In this document: positions 1 through 20,720 of the stretch, in pieces
Layout of the letters: the number at the start of each line of letters is the position of its first letter
How positions within the stretch are numbered: the first letter of the stretch is position 1
Assembly (NCBI RefSeq): GCF_030813715.1
Contig: NZ_JAUSUZ010000001.1
Location: forward strand, 1,922,001-1,986,000
DNA from: Catenuloplanes indicus
GTDB lineage: Bacteria; Actinomycetota; Actinomycetes; Mycobacteriales; Micromonosporaceae
Length of the DNA: 64,000 bases
Reading direction: 5' to 3'
The notes under the pieces: generated by a model
The model's input: only the letters and a program-made list of their open reading frames with translations
The model's database searches: none
Told to the model about the DNA's origin: nothing
Made by a program: the position numbers and the translations under genes

Positions 1-49
1 GTACCCCCATGCGAACATCCGTGCATCCCGGAGAACGTGTGGAGGTCAG

Positions 50-1111
50 TTGACGCCCGTACCCGCCCCGTCCTTACCTTCGTGGGTAGCCGTGGTCCAC
101 GCGCTGCCGCTCGGCCCTGGTGGTCGTGTCTTCAGGACTCCCCATGTCACTTACGTGCTGGAGGAAGACGCACTGCACATCCTCTTCGAGCCGGGCGACC
201 GCCCCGGCCGCACCGGCATCCGCGACGCTACCGAGGTCGAGGTGTACGCCCCGTTTCCACCCGAGATCCATGCTGTTCTCTGGCCACAGTGTTCTTCCCG
301 CCGACTTAGTCGACCCGTGGCCGGGTACGTCCGCGTCGCCGGTGGTTACCTGCCACTCGGCCGACTCGTTCAACGTGGCGCCGCCTACCTGGGCACGACG
401 CTGTATCGCATGACGTATCAGCTGGAGACGCCGATCTCGTTTCGCGTGCTGGACCGGGTGCGTGCTGCTCCGGTCGATCAGCCGTGTCCGGGTGCAGAAT
501 GGCTGCGGCACCTGCCGCATGACCCGGTCAGCGCGCTGCGCGGCTTCGTGACGGAATGGTATGCAGACCTCGCCCCGCCACTCGGCCCGCTGTCCAGCGC
601 TGTGATGCCGACTCCGCTGGCCGTCGCGTATGAGGTGATCGCAGGGCGCGACGTCTTCCGACAGGATGGCCTGTTCCCGCCACATGAACTCAAGCAGGAT
701 CACGCCGGACGGCTGGTTTTCGGTTATGAGAATCAGGGCTGCTTCCGGCTGCTGACCCTGCCTGAAGGCGACGACCCGCCGGTCTGGATCCACTGGGACG
801 ACGAGGAGCCCTTGCTCAGCGCTTTGCCACTGAGCTGTTTCCTGCTTGCCACGCTGCTGTTCGAGGCGCTGCTGACCAGTGAATACCGGATGCACGGCCG
901 GGTCTGGCGTGAGGACAAAGAGCGGGCGGTCGCTGGTCTGAAACGGGTGCCACTGGCCGGCCGGGAGATCCACGACGACAATGCCGAGACATATGTGGGG
1001 CGGGGTTTGGTGATACAGGCCCAGCCGTGGGACGAGGACACCTGGACGATCTCCGCAGCAGCGAGACACCGCGCGGACCTGCTTCCCGTGGAACGGTTCC
1101 GGAACATGTGA
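50..1111 (+). CDS. SUKH-like hypothetical protein, 3' end formed by an IS
   Basis: A protein of about 353 residues without a clear function. Residues about 165-290 have the look of a SUKH (SMI1/KNR4) domain: an FGYENQG motif, then DPPVW, then an LSCFLLATLLFEALL-type helix; SUKH proteins are often immunity proteins, so that role is inference only. The start is uncertain: a TTG at 50 has GGAGG only 4 bases upstream, and the frame stays open to the left window edge. The stop codon TGA (1109-1111) is the first three bases of the left inverted repeat of an IS3-family element, so the native C-terminus was probably replaced by the insertion, although little seems to be missing. Coding-type third-position GC bias is strong. 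Confidence 0.6.
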   Translation: MTPVPAPSLPSWVAVVHALPLGPGGRVFRTPHVTYVLEEDALHILFEPGDRPGRTGIRDATEVEVYAPFPPEIHAVLWPQCSSRRLSRPVAGYVRVAGGYLPLGRLVQRGAAYLGTTLYRMTYQLETPISFRVLDRVRAAPVDQPCPGAEWLRHLPHDPVSALRGFVTEWYADLAPPLGPLSSAVMPTPLAVAYEVIAGRDVFRQDGLFPPHELKQDHAGRLVFGYENQGCFRLLTLPEGDDPPVWIHWDDEEPLLSALPLSCFLLATLLFEALLTSEYRMHGRVWREDKERAVAGLKRVPLAGREIHDDNAETYVGRGLVIQAQPWDEDTWTISAAARHRADLLPVERFRNM

Positions 1112-1138
1112 GTTCCCCCCGTTTCGACGGAGCGGTGG

Positions 1139-2053
1139 TTACCTGCTTCCGGTCGGGGCAGGGGTGAGGTTATCTGGCTCGGTGTGGGCGTGCCAGGCGG
1201 ACTCGTATTCGTCCGGGCTGAGGTAGCCGAGTTCCTTCTGGATGCGGCGGGTGTTGTACCAGGTGTCGATATACTCGAAGATCGCGTTCTCGGCCTCATC
1301 GCGGGTCCGCCACGACGTTCGGTAGACCAGTTCGATCTTCAGCGTCGACCAGAAGTTCTCCATCAGCGCGTTGTCGAACGAGTCACCGACCGACCCCATC
1401 GACGGCCGGATTCCGTTGTCCTGCAAGCGCTGTGAGAAGCGGAAACTCGTGTAGTTCGATCCTCTGTCGCTGTGATGTATGAGCTGGCCGTCGCGGACGT
1501 CACGCGACCAGATGCCGTACTCGAGGGCGGCCAGGATCAGATCGGTATCGCACCGGTCGGAGGTCTTCCACCCGACGATGCGGCGGGAGAACACGTCGCG
1601 GACGGCGGCCAGCCAGAACACGCCCTCGCCGCACGGGATCCGGGTGGCATCAGCGACCCACAGACGGTTCGGGCCGGTCGCGGTGAACTGGCGGTTGACC
1701 AGATCCGGCGCCGGCGTGTGCGCGGGATTCTGCTTCGTTGAGCCGCCGCGCCAGCCGCGGCGCAGGAACGCCCCGTGCCAGCCCTGGCCGGCCATCAGTC
1801 GCTCGACACGCTTGCGGCCGACCCGGATGCCGTCACGACGCAGCTGCCGATGAATGCGGTCGGCGCCGTAGGTGAAGCCGGACGCTTCCCAGATCTCATA
1901 GATGTTGGAGAGCAGCCCGAGGTCGACCAGGTCCCGGTCACAGGGCTGTTTGGCCTGCCTGACCCACTGGTAGTAGGTCGACTCGGCGATGTTGAGAACC
2001 CGTAGCAGGAGCGCGACCGCGAAGCAGTCACGGTGTTCGTCGATGAACCTCAT
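1139..2053 (-). CDS. IS3-family transposase OrfB (integrase core)
   Basis: The catalytic subunit of IS element A, 304 residues. It has an HTH_21-type N-terminus (FTYGADRIHRQLRRDG) and an rve integrase core with the DDE triad visible in WVADATRI, HHSDRGSNY and DNALMENFWSTLKIEL. The C-terminal YNTRRIQKELGYLSPDEYE is typical of the family. Its ATG overlaps the orfA stop (ATGA, 2050-2053), so it is expressed by translational coupling or by the -1 frameshift usual in IS3 elements. It appears intact and potentially active. Confidence 0.95.
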   Translation of the reverse strand: MRFIDEHRDCFAVALLLRVLNIAESTYYQWVRQAKQPCDRDLVDLGLLSNIYEIWEASGFTYGADRIHRQLRRDGIRVGRKRVERLMAGQGWHGAFLRRGWRGGSTKQNPAHTPAPDLVNRQFTATGPNRLWVADATRIPCGEGVFWLAAVRDVFSRRIVGWKTSDRCDTDLILAALEYGIWSRDVRDGQLIHHSDRGSNYTSFRFSQRLQDNGIRPSMGSVGDSFDNALMENFWSTLKIELVYRTSWRTRDEAENAIFEYIDTWYNTRRIQKELGYLSPDEYESAWHAHTEPDNLTPAPTGSR

Positions 2054-2352
2054 GACCGTCGCCGGGCCGGGCCGAGCTCCGATGCGAAATAACTGGACGC
2101 GGCACGCAGGATCTCATTCACCCGGCGCAGCTCAGCGACCTCTTCCCGCAGCCGGCGGCTCTCCTCCGCCATCTCCGTGGTCGGCCGGTCATGACGTTCG
2201 CCCGCGGCCTGCCGGATCCAGTTCCGCAAAGCCTCGTGATGCACGTTCAGTTGCTCGGCCAGCCGCCGGATCGTCGGCTTCGGCTCCGACTCGCGATACA
2301 AACGCACAGCACGCGCCCTCAGCTCATCGGGGTACTTCTTCGGTGCGGCCAC
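2050..2352 (-). CDS. IS3-family transposase OrfA (helix-turn-helix)
   Basis: A DNA-binding protein of 100 residues. An HTH (YPDELRARAVRLYRESEPKPTIRRLAEQLNVHHEALRNWI, described by position 7-46) is followed by a short coiled coil of the RRLREEVAELRRVNEILRAAS type, which mediates OrfA/OrfAB multimerisation in this family. It overlaps orfB by ATGA. The start is an ATG with AGGAAG-type purines upstream (2354-2360, minus strand). Intact. Confidence 0.93.
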   Translation of the reverse strand: MAAPKKYPDELRARAVRLYRESEPKPTIRRLAEQLNVHHEALRNWIRQAAGERHDRPTTEMAEESRRLREEVAELRRVNEILRAASSYFASELGPARRRS

Positions 2353-2466
2353 AGAACTTCCTCCCCATGATCAGTCGATCATGCTTGAGAAGCTCCGCCA
2401 AACCGGGGGGAACTCACTGCAGCTGGGCTTGACCCGTTTTGACGGACAGGGTTGATGAGTTGATCT

Positions 2467-3366
2467 TCAAGCTACCTTGAGGGCTGGCAGCAGGCTGATG
2501 ACGGTGCCGCCCTCGTAGGTGGCCGGGCTCAGGTAGCCGAGGCTGGAGTGCCGGCGCCGGGTGTTGTACCAGCCCTCGATGTACTCGAATATGGCCTGTT
2601 GAGCGGCTTTGCGGGTGGGCCATGCCTGGCGGTGGATGAGTTCGGTCTTGATCGTGGAGAAGAACGATTCGGCGACCGCGTTGTCCCAGCACTGCCCGCG
2701 CCGGCCCACGCTCAGCCGCACGCCGTGCCGCTTCGCGAGGCGGGCGTGCTGGGCGCTGGTGTATTGACAACCGCGATCGGAATGGAAGACGAGACCGTCG
2801 GCGGGCCGGCGCCGGGCAAGGGCGTCGGATAGGGCGGCGTTGACGAGGTCGGTTCTGAGATGGTCGGCGACCGCCCAGCCGACGACGCGACGTGAGGCCA
2901 GGTCGATGACGGTGGCCAGGTAGAGCCAGCCTTCCCAGGTGTTGATGTAGGTGATGTCGCCGCACCAGCGGGTATCGACCGCGCCGGCGTTGACGGTGAA
3001 GTCGCGGTCGACCAGGTCCGGCCGGTCGCCGGCGTGCGGGTCCGGGACGGTGGTGGTCTTCCAGCGGCGTGGACTCTTGCCGCGCACACCGGCGGCGCGC
3101 ATCCGCCGGGCGATGCGTTTACGGCCGTGCCGCAGCCCGGCCGCGGCCAGTTCAGCGTGGATACGCGGCGCCCCGTAGGTGCCATTCGATGCGGCGTGCA
3201 CGACGCGGATCTGCGCGGTCAACCGTTCGTCGACCCGGTCCCGGGTGGACTGCTCGCCGCGGGCGTGCTGGTAGTAGGCGGACCGGGAGACCTTCAACAG
3301 CTCGCACGCACGCTTGACGTTGTGCTTACCGGCCTGCTCCGCCGCGATGAACGGATACACGTTCAC
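2467..3366 (-). CDS. IS3-family transposase OrfB (integrase core)
   Basis: Transposase of element B, 299 residues. The triad residues lie in WCGDITYI, FHSDRGCQY and DNAVAESFFSTIKTEL. The family-typical YNTRRRHSSLGYLSP motif is near the C-terminus. The start codon is GTG and overlaps the orfA stop (GTGA, 3363-3366). The reading frame is complete, so the element may still be mobile. Confidence 0.95.
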   Translation of the reverse strand: MNVYPFIAAEQAGKHNVKRACELLKVSRSAYYQHARGEQSTRDRVDERLTAQIRVVHAASNGTYGAPRIHAELAAAGLRHGRKRIARRMRAAGVRGKSPRRWKTTTVPDPHAGDRPDLVDRDFTVNAGAVDTRWCGDITYINTWEGWLYLATVIDLASRRVVGWAVADHLRTDLVNAALSDALARRRPADGLVFHSDRGCQYTSAQHARLAKRHGVRLSVGRRGQCWDNAVAESFFSTIKTELIHRQAWPTRKAAQQAIFEYIEGWYNTRRRHSSLGYLSPATYEGGTVISLLPALKVA

Positions 3367-3686
3367 CGGGTCTCCCTCGCGAAGAAAGCCGTGGCCCGCT
3401 TAAGAATGTCGACGTCCTGCTGCAACCGGCGGTTCTCCGCCCGCAGCCGGGCCAGCTCGGACCGCTCATCACTGGTCAGCCCGTCCGCGCGGGCGCCGGC
3501 GTCGAGCTCGGCCTGTTTGACCCACGCCCGCACCGCCGTCTCGGTCAGGTCGAAATCCCTCGCAACCTGCCCGACCGTGCGGTCACCACGCTGACACAAC
3601 TCCACGATCTCAGCCTTGAACTCCGGCGTGAACGCCCGCCGCGGCCTCGATCGCTTCTTCCCCACGCTCTCCATGATGCTGGACAT
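3363..3686 (-). CDS. IS3-family transposase OrfA (helix-turn-helix)
   Basis: Protein of 107 residues. The HTH_Tnp_1 region is RRAFTPEFKAEIVELCQRG followed by TVGQVARDFDLTETAVRAWV. A leucine-zipper-like stretch (ELARLRAENRRLQQDVDILKRA in residues about 79-100) follows. It is coupled to orfB. The exact ATG is uncertain because MSSIMES offers two starts. Confidence 0.92.
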   Translation of the reverse strand: MSSIMESVGKKRSRPRRAFTPEFKAEIVELCQRGDRTVGQVARDFDLTETAVRAWVKQAELDAGARADGLTSDERSELARLRAENRRLQQDVDILKRATAFFARETR

Positions 3687-3806
3687 CCTCCCGGAGACCC
3701 CAGGTCCCCTGATCTTGGATGTCCGTCAAAACGGGGCAGGCCCAAGCGCGTTGCGTCAAGCCTGGCAACGACTCGGCCCGGCCCCGCTGACTGAACGGTG
3801 TTGGTA

Positions 3807-5789
3807 CTAGGCGTTGGCCAGCATGCGGGCGGCCAGCTTGCCGGCCGTCTCCTCGATCGCGGCGAGCGAGGCCTCCCACCTGTGCAGCTGAGACCGCATA
3901 TCCTCGACCTTCGTGGCATCCTGCTTTGCGGCCGCAATGGCGTTTTCCACTGCGGTGATCGGCTCCCGAAAACGAGCCTCCAGTTCGCGATAGAGCGAGT
4001 CGGTGGAGCGCCTCAGCTCGCTGTGGAGCTTGCCGGCATACTCCTCGGCTATCAGGCCGGCATTGTTGGTCAGCTCCTGCCGGAACTCCCGGACCGCGTC
4101 CTGCTGGACGCGCCGGTTCGTGAAGTGACGGATTACCACCGGAATCGCGACCACGGACAGCACCAGGGGGGCGGCGACGGCCGCCACCGCCGTGGTGCTG
4201 GCCACCCCAACCGCAGCGAACACTCCCAGTGCGGCTCCTGCGCCGGTGCCGCCGACCAGGATTCCGAGGCCGGCGTTCTGCGCGGTCTTCGGGCTCGCCT
4301 CGACCCTCGTCACCGCGGATGTGGTCATGTTCGTCAGCCACCGGCGCAGCGTGGCATCGTCGATGGTGCGCGGTGTGCTGAAGAGCCCTTCTTCCAGTTG
4401 CTCCATCTGGATCGCGTAGTCGCGCAGCACCGGCAGCAACTCACCCTGCAAATGGTCCTGGCGCTCGGCGATGAACGCGTTCAGCTGGTCCAGGGTGAAG
4501 GCACGCATCTGCCGATCCAGTTCGGTGGCCAGACGCTCATTGAGCTTGACCGCGGCCGTCCGCCGGCCAGCGGGAAGGATCCGGCTGATGTGCACGTCGG
4601 TCCGACCACGGGCGGCCCACGCGTCGACCTCCTCTGACTTTTTGCGAAGGAAGGTCTCGGTCTGCTGACGAAGCAGGGCGGTCGACTGATCGGTCCAGTT
4701 TTTCAGGGTGAGTTCTATCAGCCGGAGTGTGTGCTCAATGTTGTGCCGTACCTCGCCCTTGCTGTCGAGGATAGTGCGCAGGTCCTTCGCGTTGCGATCC
4801 AGCACCTCTCGCTGCCTGCGGACCTTCTCTCTCAGCCTGAAGATCTCTTGGCGGACAACCTCGGCTGGCCTTTGTAGCTTCAGCCGATCGCGGCCTTCGC
4901 GGAAGAACGCCCGCAGAGCATCCTCCAGCGCCGGTACGTTGGAGCCCGCTTCCAGATCCGCCTTCGCGGGGTCGGTCCGGGCTAACAGCGCCTGTTTCGC
5001 ACTGGTGAAGTAGATCCTGGGGTCGGACCGGCGATTCATCTTCCGCGCGATGGCGCGGCACCGGCTCTCTACGTCCGCGCGATCCCGGTCTTCGATCTCG
5101 TCGACCTGGTTGACCACGAAAAAGATGTCGTCGTGCCCATGCTTGCGCAACAGGTCGAGATAGTAGTTCTGGTCCTGCTGCTTGAACGCAGCCTTCGCCA
5201 GGGTCACGTAGATGACCGCATCGACCAGCGGCAGGTAATTCATCGTCACCCGCTCGCGTTCCGGGTCCTCGTTCACACCAGCGCTGTCGATCAGTTCCAC
5301 CCCCGCGCTCAGGATCGGGAACGGGCCGTAGACCGCGCCGTGCACGTATGGGCTCCGCATGGTCTGACCCTCTTCGTCCAAGCGAAGCTCGACCTGGCGC
5401 TGAAACTCCTCAATGGAGACGACATCGACCATCTCCGGGCTGTTCTCGATGTCCCGGCTGAGCCGCGCGGAGCGCTCATCCGCGCGGGAGACCACGGTGG
5501 TGAACGCGGTCGTTGGGTTTGCGCTGCGCGGAAGAATGTCTTCGCCAAGTAGCGCGTTGATCAGCGTGCTCTTGCCGCTGCTGAAGTCGCCAAAGACCAT
5601 CACCCGGAACGCCTCGCGGTGAATGCTATTGCGAGCCGCTTCGAGTATCCGCGACTGCGTGCTCGGCAGGTGCTCGTGGTCAATGCCGCGTTCTACGCCG
5701 TCAGCGATGGTCTTGACCCGCTCGAAGATCTCAAGCAGTTCACTGCGCCACGTCTGCCAGCGCTCCGGAATGATTCTGCGATCATTCAT
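3807..5789 (-). CDS. dynamin-like GTPase, second of a coupled pair
   Basis: Protein of 660 residues in the bacterial dynamin-like family, which bind GTP and remodel or bridge membranes. The GTPase motifs are G1 GDFSSGKST (67-75), G3 DSAG (168-171) and G4 NQVD (227-230). A long helical region follows, then a Gly/Ala/Val-rich hydrophobic segment (about 507-556) that could be the membrane-inserting paddle, then a C-terminal helical stretch. The start at 5789 is chosen because it overlaps the upstream GTPase gene by only 8 bases; longer in-frame starts would lie wholly inside that gene. The pair is very likely one operon. Dynamin pairs that hetero-oligomerise are known (for example LeoA/LeoBC and DynA/DynB); which role applies here is not decidable from sequence. 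Confidence 0.9.
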   Translation of the reverse strand: MNDRRIIPERWQTWRSELLEIFERVKTIADGVERGIDHEHLPSTQSRILEAARNSIHREAFRVMVFGDFSSGKSTLINALLGEDILPRSANPTTAFTTVVSRADERSARLSRDIENSPEMVDVVSIEEFQRQVELRLDEEGQTMRSPYVHGAVYGPFPILSAGVELIDSAGVNEDPERERVTMNYLPLVDAVIYVTLAKAAFKQQDQNYYLDLLRKHGHDDIFFVVNQVDEIEDRDRADVESRCRAIARKMNRRSDPRIYFTSAKQALLARTDPAKADLEAGSNVPALEDALRAFFREGRDRLKLQRPAEVVRQEIFRLREKVRRQREVLDRNAKDLRTILDSKGEVRHNIEHTLRLIELTLKNWTDQSTALLRQQTETFLRKKSEEVDAWAARGRTDVHISRILPAGRRTAAVKLNERLATELDRQMRAFTLDQLNAFIAERQDHLQGELLPVLRDYAIQMEQLEEGLFSTPRTIDDATLRRWLTNMTTSAVTRVEASPKTAQNAGLGILVGGTGAGAALGVFAAVGVASTTAVAAVAAPLVLSVVAIPVVIRHFTNRRVQQDAVREFRQELTNNAGLIAEEYAGKLHSELRRSTDSLYRELEARFREPITAVENAIAAAKQDATKVEDMRSQLHRWEASLAAIEETAGKLAARMLANA

Positions 5790-7461
5790 CAATCTCTCGT
5801 AGCCTCTCCGTGATCTGACGCTTCGCACGTGCGGCGTCCGAGCGCAGTGCGGTCCATCGGTCGATCGGCACGCTGTCGTCCCAGGCCTGCTCGCGCGTCC
5901 GCCACCAGGTGTCATGCCGCTGCTCGCCAGCCTCGACCAGGCGGGTGAACAGCTGTGCGGTCTGGCTGGCCGCGCCACCGGTGATCGCGGTCGTCCAGTC
6001 GTCCACGAACCGGTTGAGCGCGCCCTCCGCGGCGCGCAACTCGGACTGCTGGACACGCTTTTGCAGGAACTGTGTCGCACCGCGGCTGAGCAGGCCGCCC
6101 AGAGCGTTGGCCGCCGGGATCACCGGCGGCGCGGCCAGCGCGAGCCCCGCCGATGCAACGGTCCGCACGGACTCCGCGACCGCTTCCGCAATGAGCTCGA
6201 TGGTCGCGGCGGACAAGGCACCGCCCGGCCGTGACGGTGCCGGCGCCTCGCCGAGCGGCCCGTCGCAAAGTGGTGTCTCGGCCAACTCGTCCAGCGTGTC
6301 GTCGTCGCTCAATGCGCGGCCGGCCAGCCGTCTGTCAACCCATTGCGCGGTCTCGGCGAATGCCTCGTGCAGCAGCCGACCCATCGCCGTGTCATGCGCC
6401 GCGAACTGCTCGTTGATCTGCGCGGAGATCTCGGTCCATCTGGCGGCCGGGGAAGGGCTGCCAGCGAGCTCTTGGGCGTACTTTTCGGCAAGTGTCCCAC
6501 CGAGCCGATGCGTGTCCTCGGTGATTCGGTCGACAAGCTGGCTGGCCCGCGGCTCAAGCTCCGTCTTGAGCATTGCCCATAAGGCCCGGCTCGCACCTCG
6601 CTGGGCCCGAATGCGTTCCAGGATCACTGTTCGCTGCGGGGTCTCCAGAGTGGCGGCACGCAGTCCTTCCTCGGCGACCTGGTCCAGGTCGCTGCAGGTC
6701 TGCAACAGCACGTCACCGACCGGTCGGCCCTGGCGCCGCCGGTGACCCGCGAGCACGGACAGCCGGGACCGCAGCGCCTCGACCCGGTAGGAGAAGCCGC
6801 TATCGGCCAGGTCGACGCCCGGACCCTCGAAGACCTCGACGCCCGGGCCAGCCGCGCGACCGATCCCGCGCGCGCGGCGCAGCACGAGGTCGTCATTGAC
6901 CCCGTCGAGCATGGTGATCACGATCAGCGGTGGGTCCGGCCTCCGCATCGCGGCGAGCGTCGACAGCAATGCCCGTTCCCGCAAATCGAATCCACCGACC
7001 GCCCGGACGACCAACACCGCCACGTCGCTGGCGGCCGCGGTGGTCTCAGCCGTGTGCGGCCGGTCAACGCCGACCTCGTCGCTGTCCAGACCCGGTGTGT
7101 CCACGAGTTCCAGCCCCCGGGTGCGCAGCCACGGTGATTCGACCGGAATCACGCGCTCGACCACCGACGGCACGTGACCGCTGTCGTCCGGCACGACACT
7201 GCCGGCCGAGTCCCGCTGCCCCGACCGGATCAGCGTGACCCGCTCGTTTGTGGGCACCGCGCGAACCCGAAGCAGCGGAAAGCCGAGCAGACTGTTGATC
7301 AGGCTTGACTTCCCAGCCGAGGAGTGGCCGAGGAAAGCCACGCGATATGCGCTGCGGGACAATTCCTCACGCAGGTAAGCGAGGTCCTCTGAAACATGGC
7401 TCAGTCCGAATCTTTCAGCGATCTCGATGAGATCGCTGATCTCATCAGCCCAGTCTGACAC
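5782..7461 (-). CDS. dynamin-like GTPase, first of a coupled pair
   Basis: Protein of 559 residues with a GTP-binding domain: G1 GHSSAGKSS (45-53), a threonine at 71 fitting G2, and G3 DTPG (121-124). The G4 position reads TMLD instead of the usual N/TKxD, so guanine specificity may be altered. A hydrophobic Ala/Pro-rich segment in the C-terminal third (AGLALAAPPVIPAANALG) is a candidate membrane contact. The start is GTG at 7461. It overlaps the downstream dynamin gene by 8 bases. The pair lies between two IS3 elements and a ruined serine recombinase, suggesting an accessory, transferred origin. Confidence 0.88.
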   Translation of the reverse strand: MSDWADEISDLIEIAERFGLSHVSEDLAYLREELSRSAYRVAFLGHSSAGKSSLINSLLGFPLLRVRAVPTNERVTLIRSGQRDSAGSVVPDDSGHVPSVVERVIPVESPWLRTRGLELVDTPGLDSDEVGVDRPHTAETTAAASDVAVLVVRAVGGFDLRERALLSTLAAMRRPDPPLIVITMLDGVNDDLVLRRARGIGRAAGPGVEVFEGPGVDLADSGFSYRVEALRSRLSVLAGHRRRQGRPVGDVLLQTCSDLDQVAEEGLRAATLETPQRTVILERIRAQRGASRALWAMLKTELEPRASQLVDRITEDTHRLGGTLAEKYAQELAGSPSPAARWTEISAQINEQFAAHDTAMGRLLHEAFAETAQWVDRRLAGRALSDDDTLDELAETPLCDGPLGEAPAPSRPGGALSAATIELIAEAVAESVRTVASAGLALAAPPVIPAANALGGLLSRGATQFLQKRVQQSELRAAEGALNRFVDDWTTAITGGAASQTAQLFTRLVEAGEQRHDTWWRTREQAWDDSVPIDRWTALRSDAARAKRQITERLREIDE

Positions 7462-8037
7462 TGCTGCCCCGCAATTATGTCGTGGTGAATGTCGGCTTCC
7501 GCGATACTAGTGACGTGGCGCTCCGCATGGCCTCCGGAAGAGAGCCGGGAATGTCGACCTGTCCGTCCACCAGGTGGGCATAGTCGGCGCGGAGCGCAGC
7601 ACATCGGACGAGGCCGTTCCGGCTCTTCAGCCCGGAGCAGTGGGCCGACTGACACAACATCCCAATCGATGTATTCCCCGTATCGGGGCGAGACGTCCCG
7701 CTCGACGGCCGGTTCTGACCGGAGACGCCGACGAGGCCTCTGAACACTTCGCTCGCCCTGGACAGCCGACAGCGGCGGCTCCTGTCCGGCGGCCTCACCA
7801 CCGCCGACCCGCCGGAGGCACGTTCCGGAACCCAGCCGCTACCGCAGCGACATCAGCCTTGAGCGCAAGGCGGATTCGACAGGATGTCGTCTGTGAGTCC
7901 CCGCCGGTTCACATCCTGCGAGGGAGCGGTCATGTCTACGCCTGCCCTGCATCCAGTCGAGGCGACGCGCCGATCGTGTCGGCGCACGCGGCTCTCGACG
8001 GCCTGTCCATCCGAACGCTCGCGTCTTCGGCTACGCC
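7462..8037. other. non-coding or degraded stretch upstream of the dynamin pair
   Basis: About 575 bases with no convincing coding region on either strand. The part next to 7461 presumably carries the promoter of the dynamin operon, but no clear -35/-10 pair stands out. Composition is less GC-biased than the coding neighbours. Confidence 0.5.
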
Positions 8038-8466
8038 ATGGATGACCTGCATGGCCACAGCGCGAGCGAACACGACGAGCCGATCCCCGAGAATGCCGCC
8101 CGATCGGGCCCGCCTGCGCATGCCGCTTCAGTCACCAGGCCTGCCGCCGGGTCAGCGGCGTCTACACCTTCGGGGCCACCGGACAGTGGCGCGTCACGAT
8201 ATGATTCTCGCCTCGGCCAGCAGGAGGAATCGCAGCCGATCCGCAACGAGGTACGGATTAATGGCAGTCCGGAAGGACACGAGCCTAAAGCACCCGCCCA
8301 CGCGGAAGACAATGCACCCGCCAGCCGGAGCCTGCGTGTCACTACACCGGCCGAAGCGCCCGACCTCACGCCAGGCGCAGCCCGCGCGTTGCTACGCGTC
8401 CTGCTCAACGCGGCCGGCAAGCAAGGAATCGCACCACCCGACTCCGCCAATCGGCACGAGAAGTAG
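8038..8466 (+). CDS. small hypothetical protein preceding the recombinase
   Basis: A possible 142-residue protein. The N-terminal two thirds is low-complexity and unconvincing, but the C-terminus (LTPGAARALLRVLLNAAGKQ) has the pattern of short proteins often encoded just before actinobacterial serine recombinases. It stops 4 bases before the recombinase reading frame becomes recognisable. The true start may be further in. Its function is unknown, and given the decay of its partner it may no longer be functional. Confidence 0.4.
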   Translation: MDDLHGHSASEHDEPIPENAARSGPPAHAASVTRPAAGSAASTPSGPPDSGASRYDSRLGQQEESQPIRNEVRINGSPEGHEPKAPAHAEDNAPASRSLRVTTPAEAPDLTPGAARALLRVLLNAAGKQGIAPPDSANRHEK

Positions 8467-8470
8467 CGAG

Positions 8471-9636
8471 GTAGGCATAAACTTCGGTTTCTACGGCCGC
8501 GTCTCGACCGAGGACCAACAGGACCCCGCCGCTTCTCGCGGTTGGCAACTGTCCCGGGCGAAAACGCTCATCGAACCGGCCGGTGGCCAGATTGTGCACG
8601 AGTTCTTCGACATCGGGCCCTCAAGGTCGATCCCCTGGAAGCGACGTCCCGAAGCAGCACTGCTGGCCGCGTTGAAGGACCCGCACCGCGGCTTCGACGC
8701 GATCGTCATCGGCGAACCCCAGCGCGCGTTCTACGGCAACCAGTAAGGCCTGACGTTCCCCCTCTTCGTCCACTACGGAGTCCAGCTCTGGGTCCCCGAG
8801 GTCGGCGGCGCCATCGACCCGGAAAGCGAAGCCCACGACCTGGTCATGTCCGTCTTCGGCGGCATGAGCAAAGGCGAACGCACCCGCATCCGCATCCGCA
8901 TCCGGGTCCGCTCCGCCATGGCCACCCAAACCGTCATGGAAGGCCGCTTCCTCGGCGGCCGACCGCCCTACGGCTACCGCATCATCGACCTCGGCCCGCA
9001 CCCCAACCCCAGCAAGGCCGCCATCGGGCACCGCCTCCACGGACTCGGCCTCGACGAGCAGGCAGCACCGATCGTCGTCCGCATCTTCACCGAATACATC
9101 TCAAGCGCCGGCTTCTTCGCCATCGCCCAGGGCCTCACCCACGACGAGATCCCTGCCCATCAGCACACGACCGCGACCGCAACCGGCACCGCAGCGGCAT
9201 CGCCTGGTCCAAGGGCGCCGTCCGCGCCATCCTGACCAACCCCCGATACACCGGCCACCAGGTCTGGAACCGCCAGCGTAAACAGGAGGTCCTGCTCGAC
9301 GTCGACGACGTCGCCCTCGGCCACGAAACCGAAATGCGCTGGAACGACCCGAACGTATGGCTCCGCTCCACCACCCCCAGCCACCCGGCCATCGTCACAC
9401 CGGAGACCTACCAACTCGCCCAGGACGTCTTCGCCGCCGGCGGCCGCGGCAAACGGAAAATGCCCCGCACCACCCCACGCCCGTACCAGCTCAGGGGCCT
9501 GATCTACTGCGGCCTCTGCGAGCGCCGCATGCAGGGGAACTTCAACCACGGCCTGCCGCACTACCGGTGCCGCTTCCCCAACGAGTACGCCCTGGCCAAC
9601 CACGTCGAACACCCACTCACGGTGTACCTGCGCGAG
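8471..9636 (+). pseudogene. serine site-specific recombinase, multiply broken
   Basis: A large serine recombinase remnant. The resolvase domain begins at INFGFYGRVSTEDQQDP, including the catalytic serine in GRVS. The usual start codon appears lost, with ATA where an ATG would be expected (8477-8479). An in-frame TAA at 8744-8746 follows GNQ where relatives would be expected to continue with YGLTFP, so TAC to TAA is the likely change. The frame continues with VPEVGGAIDPESEAHDLVMS and GERTRIRIRIR. A one-base loss near 9153 shifts the frame; recombinase sequence resumes (HDRDRNRHRSGIAWSKGAVR, then RYTGHQVWNRQR). Homology stops abruptly at about 9636 after VYLRE, before the end of the C-terminal domain. 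Confidence 0.9.
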
Positions 9637-9980
9637 AACCCGGTGGCGGGTGCCCGACCCTGTCTCAAGACCGAAGTGTTCCGGTATGCCGCAACCAATC
9701 TTTTGATCTGCGGTCCACCAGCGATTTCCTGCGGCGATGCCAACAGCACACGTTTCAATGAACCACACGGTGGTATGCGTGCTGCCGACGCTCGAGCGGT
9801 GCCGACATCGTCGTCGGCCGCAAACGCCGCCTTCGGCGTCGCCGGGGTGTGCGGACCATGAGTCGCTGCCGGGGCGATATCGACTCGTCCGATTCGCACA
9901 CCTCGGACAGCCGCGACCGCCCGTCTCGCAGGGGTTCTCATGACCGCCGGTGTCCGCTATCCGATTCCTATGCGACGTTG
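9637..9980. other. no recognisable gene; recombination scar region
   Basis: About 340 bases between the truncated recombinase and the next gene fragment. It is locally less GC-rich. No reading frame with coding character was found. It probably marks the lost 3' end of the recombinase and an old junction. Confidence 0.45.
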
Positions 9981-10143
9981 ATGGAGACGCGCGCTCGGGA
10001 GTCCGAGAAGCAGCGGTGGGATCGGAACTTCACCGATCTGCTGGGTGAATTGCGGATCACGCAGAACGGTATGCATATCATGTTCGCGTTTCTGCTGGTC
10101 CTGCCATTCGGGACACGATTCGGCGCGGTGACCGCTGCCGAGC
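9981..10143 (+). pseudogene. 5' fragment of a DUF6328-family membrane protein gene
   Basis: The first roughly 54 codons (METRARESEKQRWDRNFTDL, then LRITQNGMHIMFAFLLVLP) match the N-terminus of the complete DUF6328 protein at 23642-24163 of this window (ETEKQRWERNFADLLQELR and QILFAFLLMLP). After about AAER the similarity ends, and the following bases are the antisense of a different gene fragment, so the remaining transmembrane segments are missing. Confidence 0.8.
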
Positions 10144-10255
10144 GGCCCAGTACGGTACGCGCCCGCAGCAGCTGGGCGATGGCCACGGTCGACCAGGGGC
10201 AGGCGATGTCAGTGTAGACGACGATCGTTGTGGGCTCAGCCTGCGGACGGGTCAT
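10140..10255 (-). pseudogene. 5' fragment of a DsbA-family oxidoreductase gene
   Basis: Reading minus from ATG at 10255, about 40 codons include TTIVVYTDIACPWSTVAIAQ, which fits the thioredoxin-like N-terminus of actinobacterial DsbA/FrnE proteins (one cysteine of the usual site is seen, in ACPWS). The frame loses meaning where the DUF6328 fragment on the other strand begins. The two fragments converge with both 3' ends missing, as after one internal deletion spanning the ends of two convergent genes. Confidence 0.6.
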
Positions 10256-10487
10256 ATGGACGGCTCCCTCCCTGGACGCTGCTGGGCGTGTACTCCGTTA
10301 CGCCGGATGAAACCACCCGAACGGCATCACCCGCGGGCGGCCCGTACGCCGACCCGGTCCATCAGGGCGGCGACCGCGGCCGGCCGCAGCGCTCCGGGAT
10401 CATCCACCGCCGCGGCCCGCGCGATGATAGCGGCGCTACACCGCACCGCCGTGGTCCGTCTGTCCGCATTGCCGGTTGATCGGTCCG

Positions 10488-11373
10488 TCACCGTTTCAGG
10501 GTGGTCAGTTCCACCCGGCCGACGAGTTCCTGGATCGTCTCGGCGCGTCCGGTGTCCAGCCCGTGGCGAGTGACGTTCAGCGCTCCGGCCGCGGCGCCGG
10601 TCCGGACTGCCTCGTGCAGGTCACCGCCTTTACAAGCACCGCCGCGATGCCGGCGGTCATGGAGTCACCGGCTCCGTGGTGGTCGACGACCTGCAGCTGC
10701 GGCACCCGCACCTTGAGCACCTCATCGTCGAGCAGGGCCGGGCCCGGCTGGTCGGCGTGGCCGATCATCACCGCCGCCGCGCCCTCCTCGCGTAGCCGGT
10801 AAGCGGCTGCCGTCAGCGCGTCGACGCTGTCGTCCTCGGCCCGGCCGGCATCGATCAGCTCCTCGTGGCTGACCTTGAGCACCGCGACACCACCGGCGAG
10901 GACCGCGGACAGCTGGTCACCGGCCAGGTCGTCCACCACCTTCACGCCGTTACCGGTCAGGTCGGCGGTGCCGCTGAACACCGCCACCGGCGCCCGCAGC
11001 CCTTCGGTCAACGCCATCGAGTACAACTCGTCGATGTCGTGGCGTGCCATCGGCGCGCCCGTCACCGCGGCGATCTCGCTACGGGAACCGTCGCGGCGGT
11101 CGTGCACGTACAGCCACTTCCCGACTGCCGGGTCACCATCCGCAGCGTCACCTGCTCGTCGGCGAGCAGCTTGCTCAGCAGGTCGCCGGTCTCGCCGCCC
11201 ACCGCCACACACAACGTGGCCGACGCCCCGATCGAGGTGATCATCCGGGCCTGCCACACACCCTGCCCACCCGGATGGACGTGCAACTCGACCGCGTCGG
11301 CCTGCTGCTCGATCGTCACGGTCAGCCGGGGTGCCGGGCGAACACCATCACACGAGATTGTCCATGCCGTCAC
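10488..11373 (-). pseudogene. PfkB-family sugar kinase, two frameshifts
   Basis: A ribokinase/PfkB-like kinase broken into three frames. The N-terminus (LTVTIEQQADAVELHVHPGG, then QARMITSIGAS and GGETGDLLSKLLADEQV) is in one frame. From about 11120 the protein continues in another (YVHDRRDGSRSEIAAVTGAP, the central domain, and the ATP/substrate motif DHHGAGDSMTAGIAAVL). From about 10630 the C-terminus continues in a third frame (KGGDLHEAVRTGAAAGALN to VELTTLKR, stop at 10488). The catalytic GAGDS motif survives. A second decayed relative lies at about 14010-14388. Sequencing error cannot be excluded, but two separate shifts favour real decay. Confidence 0.85.
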
Positions 11374-11411
11374 GTTCCCCCACCGGCGTCATCGCAACCC
11401 GGCGAATCGGG

Positions 11412-12659
11412 TTACTCGCCACGGTCGTCGGCCGGTGAGCGACGGGGTTGTCCGCGCACCGCGCGTACGGTGCGGCGCACGACGCCGTACCAGCCGGGGA
11501 CCTCGGCCTGCTCGTCGAAGGCACGGGCGACCACCACGTCGGTCGAGGAGTGCAGCAGGATCGACAACACGATGGTCACCGCGACCAAGTGGAAGATCTC
11601 GTTCGCGGCGAGGATGCCGGATTCCAGTACGATCAGTCCGTACACCACGGAGGCGAAGCCTTTCGGGCCGAACCACATCGCTGCGGCCTGCTCCCGCATG
11701 CCCAGGCCGGATCGCAGGAACGACAGCCACAACGCGACCGGCCGGGCCACGAAGATCGCCAGGACGGCGAAGATCCAGCCGGTCCAGGAGATCTCGCCCA
11801 GGAACGCCGGAGAGATCAGCGCCCCGAACACCAGCAGCGCTGCCAGTTTGAACAGCTCGGCGATGTTCTCCCCGAAGTGCTCGAACGCAGCCCGTTGCCG
11901 CGGGCCGAAGGTGGCCACGGTGATGCCGGCGGAGAACGCGGCCAGGAACAGGTTCGCGTGCGTGGCCTGCCCGACGGCGAGGACCAGCAGGCCGATGGCC
12001 AGTCCGTTGAGCGGCTCGTAGGCCGGGGAGGCGGAGAAGAAGCGGCTGCGTTCCAGCAGGATCGCGCCGAGCGGGATCAGCACGCCGATGATCAAGCCCA
12101 GCGAGACTTCCAGAGCGAGCTCGCCCAGGTGCAGATCGGCGGAACCGGCCGCGATGGCCAGGAAGACGATAACGAACGGCAACGCCAGGCCGTCGTTGAC
12201 GCCGGACTCGACGTTGAGTAGATGCCGCAGCCGGGCCGGCACCTTGTCGTTGCCGACCAGCGCGGACGCGAACACCGGGTCGGTCGGTGCCAGGATCGCC
12301 CCGATCAGCAGCGACTCGGCCCAGCTCAGCCCGGCCACGTAGTGCGCGAGCAATGCGGTGACCAGCAGGGTCAGTGGCAGGCCCCAGCCCAATGCCCGGC
12401 CGGGCAGCCGCCACGCCGAGCGCAGATCGGCCCAGCCGACCCGCATGCCGTCGGTGAACAGCACCGCGAACAGCGCCAACTCGGCCAGCGTGCCGACGAT
12501 CGGCGAGTCGGCGTGCACGTCCAGCACGTCGGTCACGCCTGGTCCGAGCAGGAACCCGGCGGCCAGGAACAGCACGGCGGTGGACAGGATCGTGCGGCCG
12601 GCGAGCGCGGACACGAGGACCGCGAGTAGCAGAACGCAGGCGAAAGCGAGCAGCAGCAC
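11412..12659 (-). CDS. Na+/H+ (cation:proton) antiporter, CPA1/NhaP type
   Basis: Integral membrane protein of 415 residues with about 11-12 hydrophobic segments. Family motifs include GAILAPTDPVFASALVGND and the ESGVNDGLALPFVIVFL helix, which carries the ion-binding ND pair of CPA1 exchangers. It exchanges Na+ or K+ for H+ across the cytoplasmic membrane and so serves pH and salt tolerance. The C-terminal tail is cytoplasmic and basic. The start is GTG at 12659 with GGAG upstream. A C-terminal remnant of a related antiporter exists at 37960-38113. Confidence 0.93.
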   Translation of the reverse strand: MLLLAFACVLLLAVLVSALAGRTILSTAVLFLAAGFLLGPGVTDVLDVHADSPIVGTLAELALFAVLFTDGMRVGWADLRSAWRLPGRALGWGLPLTLLVTALLAHYVAGLSWAESLLIGAILAPTDPVFASALVGNDKVPARLRHLLNVESGVNDGLALPFVIVFLAIAAGSADLHLGELALEVSLGLIIGVLIPLGAILLERSRFFSASPAYEPLNGLAIGLLVLAVGQATHANLFLAAFSAGITVATFGPRQRAAFEHFGENIAELFKLAALLVFGALISPAFLGEISWTGWIFAVLAIFVARPVALWLSFLRSGLGMREQAAAMWFGPKGFASVVYGLIVLESGILAANEIFHLVAVTIVLSILLHSSTDVVVARAFDEQAEVPGWYGVVRRTVRAVRGQPRRSPADDRGE

Positions 12660-16558: not shown

Positions 16559-17656
16559 ATGGCCTTCAGCGACGAGCCGATCGGCACCCTCGAAACGGTC
16601 GCGACGTTCGACGGCCCGATGCCCACCGGCGTCACCGTCTCCCGCAGCGGCCGCGTCTTCGTCAACTTCCCGAAGTGGGGCGACGACGTACCCGCCACCG
16701 TCACCGAGTTGCGTGACGGCAAGCCGGTGCCGTTCCCGGACCAGCGGTGGAACACCCCCGACGGCGACGATGACGAGCGCGCCTTCGTCTCGGTGCAGAG
16801 CGTCGTCGTCGACCCCGCCGACAGACTCTGGGTTCTCGACACCGGCTCACCGATGTTCCAGCCCACCCGCACCGGCGGACCGAAGCTGGTCTGTGTCGAC
16901 CTGGGCACCGACACCGTGGTCCGGACGATCGTGTTCCCACCGGACGTTGCGCTGCCCACCACGTACCTCAATGATGTTCGTTTCGATCTCCGCCGTGGTG
17001 GTGACGGCATGGCGTTCATCACCGACTCCTCCGACCAGGGCCCGAACGGGATCATCGTCGTCGACCTGGCCGCGGGCGAATCATGGCGGCGGCTGCACGA
17101 GCACCCGTCGACGAAGGCCGAACCCCTCACCACCTTCCGGCCGGTGGTCGAAGGTCGCTACCTCATGCAGCGGCCGGCCGGCGGCGACCCGCAGCCGGTC
17201 ACGATGGGTGCCGACGGCATCGCCATCTCCCACGACGGGCAGCGCCTGTACTACTGCCCGCTCGCCTCCCGGCGGCTCTACAGCGTCTCCGTCGACGCCC
17301 TGTGCGATCGGTCGCTCGACGATGACGCGGTGGCCGCCACCGTGATCGACGAGGGCGACAAGGGCACCGGCTCCGACGGCCTGGAGACCGATGACGCCGG
17401 CAACCTCTACCTGACCGCCTACGAGCACAACGCCGTGCTGCGGCGCCGGCCCGACGGCAGCTACGAGACGATCGTCCACGACGCGCGACTGCTGTGGCCG
17501 GACACCATGTCGGTCGCCGCCGACGGCCACCTGTACGTCACGGCCAACCAACTGCACCGCCAGGCCACCTACCAGAACGGCAAGGATCTGCGGCATAAGC
17601 CGTACGCCCTGTTCCGGACCCGCATCGACGCCGGTCCGATCCAGCTGCACCCATAG
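16559..17656 (+). CDS. MRJP/SMP-30-like beta-propeller protein
   Basis: Protein of 365 residues resembling the major royal jelly/yellow and gluconolactonase-like beta-propellers: repeated segments such as SVVVDPADRLWVLDTGSP, TYLNDVRFDLRRGGDGMAFI, ADGIAISHDGQRLYYCPLAS and SDGLETDDAGNLYLTAYEHN. No signal peptide is visible, so it is probably cytoplasmic; the substrate is unknown, with a sugar lactone possible. The ATG at 16559 lies 6 bases after the preceding stop. A strong terminator follows immediately. Confidence 0.85.
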   Translation: MAFSDEPIGTLETVATFDGPMPTGVTVSRSGRVFVNFPKWGDDVPATVTELRDGKPVPFPDQRWNTPDGDDDERAFVSVQSVVVDPADRLWVLDTGSPMFQPTRTGGPKLVCVDLGTDTVVRTIVFPPDVALPTTYLNDVRFDLRRGGDGMAFITDSSDQGPNGIIVVDLAAGESWRRLHEHPSTKAEPLTTFRPVVEGRYLMQRPAGGDPQPVTMGADGIAISHDGQRLYYCPLASRRLYSVSVDALCDRSLDDDAVAATVIDEGDKGTGSDGLETDDAGNLYLTAYEHNAVLRRRPDGSYETIVHDARLLWPDTMSVAADGHLYVTANQLHRQATYQNGKDLRHKPYALFRTRIDAGPIQLHP

Positions 17657-17660
17657 GTCC

Positions 17661-17695
17661 GCGAGCGGCCCCCGGGTGATTCGGGGGCCGCTCGC
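17661..17695 (+). terminator. strong intrinsic terminator-type hairpin
   Basis: A perfect 14-bp stem, GCGAGCGGCCCCCG, pairs with CGGGGGCCGCTCGC across a 7-base loop (GGTGATT), 4 bases after the stop at 17656. There is no U-tract, which is usual for actinobacterial hairpin terminators. Confidence 0.85.
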
Positions 17696-17925
17696 TGCGG
17701 CGATACCGAAATCAGGCCAGCTCGGGCGGGAGCCGGTCCAGAGATCGGCAGCCGTGCGGATCCGGATGCCGGTCGCATGGGTGACGACGTTGTAGCGGGC
17801 CCGCTGGCACCGAAGCAGGCCGACCATCGCCTGTCGGCACCCTGTCGGTGCCGGCCCGGCCTCGCCAGGATGCGGACCGCAGTATCGGATGAGGCGGCAG
17901 ACAACCGGGTCCATTTCCCTCGGCT

Positions 17926-18384
17926 CTATTCGGCGACGACCAGCGCCTGCGGGGCGGCGGCCTTCATCCGGGTACGCAGCCACTGCAACTGGATCGCGGT
18001 CTCGCCCTCGCACTGCTGGACGACCTGCTGCAGGCCGTGATCGCGAGCGCCGCGGGCGGCCTGCCCGACCACGGTCCAGCACACGTCGCACTCGGCGGCC
18101 ATCAAATACAGGTCCTGAAGATCCCGCAGCAGGCCGATGCCACCGGTCCGGGTGCCGGAGAACAGCTCCGAGTGCAGCCGCTCGGGTTCGTCCGGCGCCT
18201 CCTCGGAATAGCGGCGGGCGAAGGGCTCCAGCAGACCGGCGTGCCTGTCGCACACCCCCGCCTGCTGGTGACAGAGGTGGAAGACGTCGGGCTCGTCGGC
18301 ATGCGCCTCGCCGACCTGCCGGAAAGCGTCAGCGAGATTGCTCTGGGCACGATGCAGCAGGCCGAGATAGTGGGCGAGGTGCAT
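17926..18384 (-). CDS. hypothetical protein coupled to the molybdoenzyme
   Basis: Helical protein of 152 residues with His/Cys-bearing segments (HLCHQQAGVCDRHAG and MAAECDVCWTVVGQAARG). It overlaps the end of the molybdopterin oxidoreductase gene by one base, so it is co-translated, and may be a dedicated partner or maturation factor (inference). No family is named with confidence. The arrangement of Cys/His could bind metal. The 270 bases between its stop and the terminator at 17695 hold no gene. Confidence 0.75.
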   Translation of the reverse strand: MHLAHYLGLLHRAQSNLADAFRQVGEAHADEPDVFHLCHQQAGVCDRHAGLLEPFARRYSEEAPDEPERLHSELFSGTRTGGIGLLRDLQDLYLMAAECDVCWTVVGQAARGARDHGLQQVVQQCEGETAIQLQWLRTRMKAAAPQALVVAE

Positions 18385-20720
18385 CAGCGTCCTCCGTCCG
18401 CGTCGGCGAGCTTGACGATGCGTACCGCGGCGACCTTGAAGATCGGTTGTTTGGAGACCGGGTCCCAGGCCGTCACGGTGAGCTCGTTCGCGGCCCGCGG
18501 TAGCCGGTCGGGCCGGTCGATGTCGAAGTAGCCGTAGTGGAACGGCACGAAGATCACGCCGGCACGGATCCGGCCGATGCGGGCCGGCCCCTGGATGGCG
18601 CCGCGCGGTGCGGCGATGCCGACGAGATCGCCGTCGGTGATGCCGTGGCGAGCGGCGTCCTCGGTGCTGATCTGCACCCAGACGTCCGGTGCCGCGGCGT
18701 CCAGCTGTCGGGCACGGCCGGTCTTGGTACGCGTATGAAATTGGTACACGGTCCGCCCGGTGGTCAGCAGCAGCGGATACTCGTCGCTGGGCACCTCCGG
18801 CGACGGCTGGAAGTCGACCGCGTGCAGAAAAGCCCGCCCACCCGGTTCCTTAGCCCGGTACTGCTGCTCGCTGAACTCCGCGCCGGTGGACAGATCATGA
18901 CCGTACGTCTCGCAGTAATCCGGATCGGTGTTGAAGACGCCGTCGGTGTAGAGGCGCTCGGTGCCCTCGGGATGCTCGTCGTCGCACGGCCACTGGATAC
19001 CGCTGCCGCCACGCAGCCGCTCGTACGTGATGCGGGTGTAATCGCACGGCCGGCCTCGGGAGCACTCCTTCCACGCCTCGAAGACGTCCTCCGGCCCGGT
19101 CCAACGGATCAGCGGTTCGCCGTCGCGGTCCCGGAAATCCATCCGGCGCGCGTAGTCGAGGAAGATGTCCAGGTCGGCGCGCGCCTCGCCAGGCGGGTCG
19201 ACGGCCTTCTCACTCAGGTGCACGGTGCGGTCCACGCTGGTGAACGTGCCGAGCTTCTCGCCCCAGGTGGCGGCCGGCAGGACCACGTCGGCCAGCTCGG
19301 CGGTCTCGGTGAGGAACAGATCCTGGACGACGACGAACAGCTTCGGCTTCGCCAGGATGCGGCGGATGCGTGCCAGGTCGGGCAGCGACACCGCCGGGTT
19401 GGTCGCCGAGATCCACAGCAGTTTGATCGAGCCCTGCTCGGCGTACCGGAAGATTTGCATCGCGTGCGTCGGCGGCGCCCAGTGCGGGATGGTGTCCGGT
19501 TCCACGTTCCACAGCTCGGCAAGCTCGCGGATGTGCTGCTCGTTGTCCCAGTTCCGCAACCCCGGCAGGTCACCGTCGGCGCCGGTCTCGCGAGTGTTCT
19601 GCGCGGTCGGCTGCCCGTTCATCTGGTAGATGCCGGCCCCCGGACGGCCGATCATGCCGCGCAACAGGTGCAGGTTGTTCACCGCACACGCTGCGGCGGT
19701 GGCCTGATTCGACTGGTAGAAGCCCTGCAGCACGGTCGACAGCAGCCGCTGGGACGTGCCGATCAGTTCGGCGGCGCGTTCCACGTCAGCGGCCCGGATG
19801 TCACAGATGCCGGCGACCCGCTCGGGCGGGTAGCCGTCGACGATTCGGCACAGCTCGTCGAAGCCGATCGTGTGCGCGGCCACGTACGCCTCGTCGTACC
19901 AGCCGCGCCGGATGATCTCGCGTAGCAGGCCGTTCATCAAGGCCACGTTCGTGCCGGCCCGCACCGCCAGGTGCACGTCAGCCTCCCGGGCCACCGGGGT
20001 GTCACGCGGGTCGACTGCCAGCATCGCCGGCGGGTTTGTGCCCCGGCGCCGGTCCAGCATGCGCATCCACAGCACGCTCTGCGTCTCGGCGACGTTGTGC
20101 CCCCACAGCGCGATCGCGTCGCAGTGATCCACATCGGTGTACGAGCCGGGCTGCCCGTCCGTGCCGAAACTGGCCTTCATCGCCGCCGCCGCGGTGGCCG
20201 TGCACAGCCGGGTGTTGCCGTCCATGTGCGGCGTGCCGATACCGGCCTTGCCGATCACCCCGAGCGCGTAGTACTCCTCCAGGAACAGCTGCCCGGAGGT
20301 GTAGAAACCGAAGTGCCCCCATCCGCCCGGGCCGTCCAGCAGCTCCCGGGACCGGGTGACGATCCGGTCCATCGCGGTGTCCCAGTCCGCTTCAACGAGG
20401 CGGCCGCCGTCGCGGACCAGCGGACGGGTCAGCCGGTCCGGGCTGTTGTTGGCCTGCCAGCCGTACATGTCCTTCACATCCAGCCGGCCGTGATTGACCC
20501 GGTCCACGGCACGTCCACGTACCCCCGCGATCCTGCCGTCCTTGACGGCGATGTCCATCGCGTCACCGTTGGAGTGCAGCACCGACGCGGACTGGTACCA
20601 GCCGTCGACCTCGTCCTCGGACAGGCCGTCGCCGAGGAACATGTCGACGCGCTCCGGCCACGCGGCGCCCGGCGCGTACGGTGTGCGCGGCCCCCACGGG
20701 TCGGCGATTCGATCAACCAC
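18384..20720 (-). CDS. molybdopterin oxidoreductase lacking the N-terminal iron-sulfur site
   Basis: Protein of 778 residues of the DMSO reductase superfamily, closest in layout to NarB/FdhF-type nitrate reductases or formate dehydrogenases. GNTRLCTATAAAAMK carries the probable Mo-coordinating Cys, and the C-terminal molybdopterin dinucleotide-binding domain is present (LLTTGRTVYQFHTRTKTGRA, VPFHYGYFD). The first domain, which normally holds three or four Cys for a 4Fe-4S cluster, reads WYQSASVLHSNGDAMDIAV and RLDVKDMYGWQ, with no cluster ligands. The substrate is unknown. It overlaps the HPP gene by 8 bases and the 152-residue gene by 1, forming a three-gene operon. Confidence 0.88.
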   Translation of the reverse strand: MVDRIADPWGPRTPYAPGAAWPERVDMFLGDGLSEDEVDGWYQSASVLHSNGDAMDIAVKDGRIAGVRGRAVDRVNHGRLDVKDMYGWQANNSPDRLTRPLVRDGGRLVEADWDTAMDRIVTRSRELLDGPGGWGHFGFYTSGQLFLEEYYALGVIGKAGIGTPHMDGNTRLCTATAAAAMKASFGTDGQPGSYTDVDHCDAIALWGHNVAETQSVLWMRMLDRRRGTNPPAMLAVDPRDTPVAREADVHLAVRAGTNVALMNGLLREIIRRGWYDEAYVAAHTIGFDELCRIVDGYPPERVAGICDIRAADVERAAELIGTSQRLLSTVLQGFYQSNQATAAACAVNNLHLLRGMIGRPGAGIYQMNGQPTAQNTRETGADGDLPGLRNWDNEQHIRELAELWNVEPDTIPHWAPPTHAMQIFRYAEQGSIKLLWISATNPAVSLPDLARIRRILAKPKLFVVVQDLFLTETAELADVVLPAATWGEKLGTFTSVDRTVHLSEKAVDPPGEARADLDIFLDYARRMDFRDRDGEPLIRWTGPEDVFEAWKECSRGRPCDYTRITYERLRGGSGIQWPCDDEHPEGTERLYTDGVFNTDPDYCETYGHDLSTGAEFSEQQYRAKEPGGRAFLHAVDFQPSPEVPSDEYPLLLTTGRTVYQFHTRTKTGRARQLDAAAPDVWVQISTEDAARHGITDGDLVGIAAPRGAIQGPARIGRIRAGVIFVPFHYGYFDIDRPDRLPRAANELTVTAWDPVSKQPIFKVAAVRIVKLADADGGR

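Follow-up and report, generated by a model that had tools for sequence, protein, structure and literature searches.

A tandem pair of unlike dynamin GTPases in Catenuloplanes indicus, probably an acquired instance of known bacterial dynamin pairs

Known dynamin pairs and the pair of C. indicus

Most bacterial dynamins are described as encoded in operon pairs, and their heterotypic pairing is regarded as fundamental (PMC6104087). Why they occur in unlike pairs is unsettled. A natural comparison is offered by the lineage analyzed here, found in C. indicus as two genes, A and B (encoding the GTPases P0001 and P0002), in a 64,000-nucleotide stretch of contig NZ_JAUSUZ010000001.1, here called the window. 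The pair is an uncommon, probably acquired instance of the known tandem dynamins and not a new type of system, because related pairs are scattered in distant bacteria. It is most likely an acquired membrane-remodelling or repair module. Related pairs occur in several phyla. The nucleotide motifs drift in A among the actinomycetes and in B among many cyanobacteria, and how the two subunits share the work becomes directly testable in this lineage.

B resembles BDLP1 of Nostoc punctiforme (PDB 2J68) over its full length (E 8.6e-29 for the single sequence). A profile of the B family matched BDLP1 with 305 bits over nearly the full length, against 106.5 bits for structure 5OWV, 78 for IniA and 41.5 for LeoA (4AUR), and the hydrophobic paddle-like stretch of B lies at the matching position. 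Membrane action, suggested in the initial annotation of this DNA, is therefore supported by homology. The hydrophobic C-terminal segments that it had ascribed to both proteins were confirmed as strong in B (best 19-residue Kyte-Doolittle mean 2.68, residues 509-553), while that of A is weak (1.55). Unlike the classified neighbours of B, which are A-type, the gene beside BDLP1 is described as carrying a DnaJ-like domain (PMC6104087).

Among solved structures the A family best matches the mycobacterial IniA (PDB 6J72), with 96.8 bits over most of the length, while P0001 alone matches it at just E 8e-4 and A, unlike IniA, has a drifted switch I and G4. The relationship to IniA/IniC was judged from the match to the IniA structure, the solved structures being listed without IniC. 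The iniBAC gene order was not seen at the pair, although no search aimed at an iniB-like gene was made. Structure 5OWV, presumably that of the Campylobacter Cj-DLP1/Cj-DLP2 pair, matches both families (85.1 bits for A in addition to the value for B above). Lipid binding by IniA has been reported to depend on positively charged residues, and IniC may regulate IniA (PMC6715688). Cj-DLP1 and Cj-DLP2 also form a side-by-side pair, theirs being described as a membrane-tethering 2:2 tetramer in which Cj-DLP1 bears an N-terminal assembly domain of 119 residues (PMC6104087). In contrast, 44 residues precede the P-loop in A and 66 in B, which is too short for such a domain.

LeoA/LeoBC, known as Eleos, are likewise tandem unlike dynamins with a patchy spread, and it has been proposed that LeoA cannot bind or hydrolyse GTP without LeoBC (PMC4159319). 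They differ from the present pair in that LeoBC of Escherichia coli is split into two genes and in the low match of the LeoA structure to the B family compared to BDLP1. In Bacillus subtilis DynA two dynamin units are required together and protect the membrane, gathering at sites of damage (PMC6104087, PMC8844932). DynA is a single fused chain as opposed to two genes, and the NCBIfam DynA model scored 29 bits with A and 64 with B, against a cut-off of 1600.

Pairing, distribution and motif drift

The initial annotation described two unlike dynamin GTPases of 559 and 660 residues, encoded on the minus strand with an 8-base overlap. This description holds: both frames are open along their full length with conserved motifs kept, and both proteins score above the Pfam Dynamin_N cut-off of 27 bits (98.9 for B, 53.3 for A). 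The bacterial dynamin helical domain was detected in B (36.3 bits, cut-off 28.3), while the helical neck and trunk of A are seen only via the match of the A-family profile to IniA across most of its length. G1 and G3 were located in both proteins, as was TMLD, the previously proposed G4 of A, which departs from the canonical TKLD. The positions of these features are collected in Table 1.

Relatives were taken as the best 80 of 534 confirmed when species genomes were scanned with an alignment of four B members; no frequencies can be read from this set. The closest among these best 80 are from two Actinomadura (37 and 40% identity), Streptomyces, Actinacidiphila and actinobacterium OV450, followed by cyanobacteria, Chloroflexi, Clostridia and others. 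In a FastTree phylogeny of 218 GTPase domains the clade with A has 32 members (support 0.95) and the group with B has 39 (0.55); these supports became 0.96 and 0.78 with 18 more domains. An IQ-TREE analysis of 81 chosen domains gives the A clade a bootstrap of 99, and a value of 100 both to the close actinomycete A clade and to its B counterpart.

In all nine close actinomycete relatives (L061-L069), as in the window, the two genes overlap at the stop of A and the start of B. With the B start codons of the relatives judged by eye, the overlap measures 4 bases in L061-L063 and 1 in L064-L069, compared to 8 in the window; L070, L087 and L103 have short gaps instead. From this arrangement A and B are probably made together. 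At every one of the 32 A-clade loci, the window and 31 fetched ones, the next downstream dynamin gene on the same strand belongs to the B group. Because these loci were found through B, the proportion is more fairly stated from the B side: of 39 B-group genes, 32 have a classified A neighbour. In L064, too, B has an A neighbour, one dropped earlier by a motif filter. The tree distances of A and B are correlated (Spearman 0.86 over 32 pairs, with none of 2000 permutations as high), which could be explained by common descent alone. Gene order, overlap and co-occurrence make the heteromeric pair that had been proposed probable. A third dynamin is often beside the pair in cyanobacteria and Clostridia. 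In two Streptomyces relatives a conserved gene of ~400 residues with no Pfam match follows the pair (L087:9657-10835 and L103:3818-5029).

The pair is accessory. A was found in one of five genomes of the genus, one of 397 of the order (E 1e-15) and one of 396 of the phylum (1e-8), only its own genome each time. These thresholds would miss distant A relatives, the Streptomyces-type A proteins scoring ~42-46 bits, so that B is the safer measure of distribution. B was found in one of 394 genomes of the order; within the phylum, 27 of 396 genomes gave a match at 1e-15, its own included. Among 16 regions examined of the 26 other B matches in the phylum, one (L180) combines an A-clade gene with a B-group gene; the remaining 15 have a lone dynamin outside both. 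With relatives scattered in distant bacteria, this distribution agrees with a patchy, accessory character, and not with the core genes at one fixed locus that would have spoken against the initial annotation. Scans with the single A protein gave no relatives in genome contigs, plasmids or phages; those with B gave none in viral contigs and only distant dynamins in plasmids (5 records) and phages (1 record). Three consecutive dynamin genes lie on a Lysinibacillus plasmid (L057:2840-9536).

The Thr of switch I is required for GTP hydrolysis, and the Asp of G4 for the choice of guanine. Thr occupies the switch-I position in 39 of 39 B-group domains, in 100 of 102 other tandem domains and in 44 of the 45 actinobacterial domains used for comparison. 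In the A clade only 23 of 32 domains have it, and the nine exceptions are all actinomycete. Nine of the ten close actinomycete A proteins (window and L061-L069) are changed there; L062 keeps Thr, and the A protein of L070 is poorly aligned at this position. L064 has Asp at the Thr position, DTQG as G3 and TALD as G4, and the G4 Asp is missing in five A proteins (L065-L069). TMLD, the G4 of A in the window, also occurs in the clostridial A protein L084, with an intact switch I, and in the Thr-keeping actinomycete A proteins L062, L087 and L103. While the switch-I Thr and often also G4 drift in close actinomycete A, the motifs of the partner B are intact. This one-sided drift, the freshest point of the analysis, may point to an asymmetric complex.

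In several cyanobacterial pairs the drift seems to run the opposite way, with the motifs of A kept and Asn for the G4 Asp in B. Such an exchange alters nucleotide choice in other GTPases. Asn replaces this Asp in 12 of 39 B-group domains (L070, L071, L073-L080, L089 and L091), of which 10 are cyanobacterial, one is from Chloroflexi and one from Streptomyces (L070), and in 25 of 102 other tandem dynamin domains. It is conceivable, although we regard it as doubtful, that actinomycete A is a regulatory pseudo-GTPase kept solely as partner of a catalytic B, in which case the roles within the heteromer would be naturally separated. Literature searches, judged by title, gave no work on a bacterial dynamin pseudo-GTPase and no survey of actinobacterial dynamins with horizontal transfer.

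Table 1 Positions in the window of the dynamin pair, its motifs and neighbouring elements
Feature	Positions	Strand	Basis or remark
Gene A (P0001), IniA-like dynamin GTPase, 559 aa	5782..7461	minus	GTG start, open frame
Gene B (P0002), BDLP1-like dynamin GTPase, 660 aa	3807..5789	minus	ATG start, open frame
Shared 8 bases, end of A and start of B	5782..5789	minus	ORF (open reading frame) coordinates
A, G1 (P-loop) GHSSAGKSS	7303..7329	minus	alignment/motif
A, residue 72, Asn at switch-I (G2) Thr position	7246..7248	minus	alignment/motif
A, G3 DTPG	7090..7101	minus	alignment/motif
A, G4 TMLD, Met for Lys	6904..6915	minus	canonical TKLD
B, G1 GDFSSGKST	5565..5591	minus	alignment/motif
B, G2 PTTA	5505..5516	minus	alignment/motif
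B, G3 DSAG	5277..5288	minus	alignment/motif
B, G4 NQVD	5100..5111	minus	alignment/motif
B, hydrophobic paddle-like stretch, residues 509-553	4131..4265	minus	hydropathy
Complete IS3-family element	2424..3744	minus	25-nt inverted ends, transposase domains, identical second copy; neighbour only
Broken serine recombinase	8470..9588	plus	~1 kb upstream of A; neighbour only

A membrane role under envelope stress and its rivals

We favour, with moderate confidence, the explanation that A and B are subunits of one probably acquired heteromeric dynamin acting on the membrane under envelope stress. The two proteins would be co-produced and assemble with each other. B, a BDLP1-type dynamin with intact GTPase motifs and a paddle-like stretch, would insert in the cytoplasmic membrane and supply most of the GTP hydrolysis, and the IniA-like A, with its drifted switch I and G4, would pair with B and set its assembly or activity. 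The A:B complex may in this way tether, reshape or seal the membrane under envelope stress. Several points weigh against this explanation. The stress role is suggested by analogy with other dynamins, and the A family favours IniA over BDLP1 by only 8 bits (96.8 versus 88.9). A Thr beside the changed switch-I position could serve in P0001, and also in L061 and L065-L069. The IQ-TREE analysis gives B no clean clade of its own; the smallest group with all 22 B-group domains takes in 18 others, including BDLP1-kind cyanobacterial dynamins.

A defence role of the pair, as put forward in the initial annotation, is possible by analogy. The pair would then be an anti-phage system, either a relative of Eleos or a lysis-delaying module like DynA of B. 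subtilis, which has been reported to delay phage lysis in a manner requiring its GTPase residues (PMC8844932). The patchy spread of the pair is in line with this, as are the matches to the LeoA model (92 bits for B, 34.5 for A), and the LeoBC model also scored with both (60 and 24 bits). These scores were read against those of other dynamins (50-94 bits) and not against PADLOC's own thresholds, and the controls fall in the same range: the LeoA model gave 64-78 bits with other B-type proteins, 72 with the resident dynamin of the genus, 50 with Nostoc L109 and 94 with a third cyanobacterial dynamin, and the LeoBC model 75 with the genus resident. The LeoA score of B, although at the top of this range, thus fails to identify Eleos, because the third cyanobacterial dynamin equals it. 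The far weaker match of the B family to LeoA itself than to BDLP1 also argues against an anti-phage system. At the settings used, no recognisable defence system was seen near the pair or near seven of the ten closest actinomycete relatives. PADLOC (1e-10) matched one of 42 ORFs between ~40 kb left of the window and window base 26192. This sole match near the pair is a subtilase-like protein ~30 kb away (L006:14202-16073), which also matches IetS; the ORF after it gave no match, the IetA partner not being otherwise sought. In 55 ORFs from the seven loci of relatives 17 PADLOC models matched one ORF each (best E 4.2e-20), mostly kinase-type or other general proteins. The ORFs near the pair and those of the relatives had been selected on base composition, so that some frames may be wrong. 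In L062, L063 and L067 the tested neighbours are housekeeping genes. The gene context therefore provides no link to defence and the LeoA match is unspecific, and we consider an anti-phage function of the pair unlikely.

Eleos was also tried as a label for the pair and rejected because other dynamins score in the same range, although the genus resident is 20 bits below B. Eleos was described as extremely enriched in Rhodococcus in one survey (PMC10482375). Automatic Eleos calls in this phylum deserve a check, because the LeoA/LeoBC models score sizeably on a dynamin in every genome of the genus.

That the pair arrived recently, has no present function and is heading to decay would fit the insertion sequence (IS) elements and broken recombinase adjoining it, and also the long branches that P0001 and P0002 have in the FastTree phylogeny, each in its own clade. 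The fully open frames, conserved motifs and coupling by overlap make this very unlikely. A role in cell division or sporulation is likewise very unlikely. It is suggested by the presence of tandem dynamin genes in an actinomycete and by DynA/DynB of Streptomyces, a tandem pair described as having a role in sporulation septation (PMC6715688, PMC6104087). Judged by its distribution, however, the present pair is not conserved core (one of five genus genomes, one of 394 of the order), and a different tandem dynamin pair, present in all five genus genomes and at 316-318 kb in this one, could do the job.

Flanking DNA and composition

To the left of the pair lie IS elements and sensor kinases, and to the right Na+/H+ exchanger, kinase-like and dehydrogenase genes. 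The stop codon of B and the end of the complete IS3-family element of Table 1 are 62 bases apart, and the ORFs of another IS3 element lie at 1139-2352. In the broken serine recombinase, a recombinase domain and a weak zinc-ribbon match were found in the frame 8542-9861, while the frame with the N-terminal part has no Pfam match. The IS3 elements and decayed recombinase, from which the initial annotation had deduced horizontal transfer, are thus present, but they are not tied to a transfer event: direct repeats of at least 16 bases in window positions 1-12000 formed five short families, none bracketing the pair like attachment sites, and therefore nothing shows that the flanking elements carried the pair. 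The flanks had no syntenic match in the four other genomes of the genus, so no empty site could be defined. The G+C content at third codon positions, 0.81 in A and 0.82 in B, compares to a median of 0.86, and is as low or lower in 8 (A) and 13 (B) of 53 nearby genes; composition is weak evidence of a foreign origin of the pair.

Some further observations concern the surrounding DNA. An open frame of 353 residues with coding-like composition and no Pfam match (window 50-1111) adjoins the IS3 elements. Part of the broken recombinase (window 8481-9324) shares 77% DNA identity with an unannotated stretch of a Streptomyces plasmid. The 1321-base IS3-family element has its second copy at L005:15496-16816, with 0 differences, ~7 kb away and in the same orientation; the dynamin pair lies outside the segment that the two copies enclose. 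Two stretches of the same region, L005:13068-15124 (2057 bases) and 16847-19876 (3030 bases), which include an IS21-like transposase gene, match adjoining stretches of a second species of the genus (G004) with 100% identity, which makes a recent exchange between species likely.

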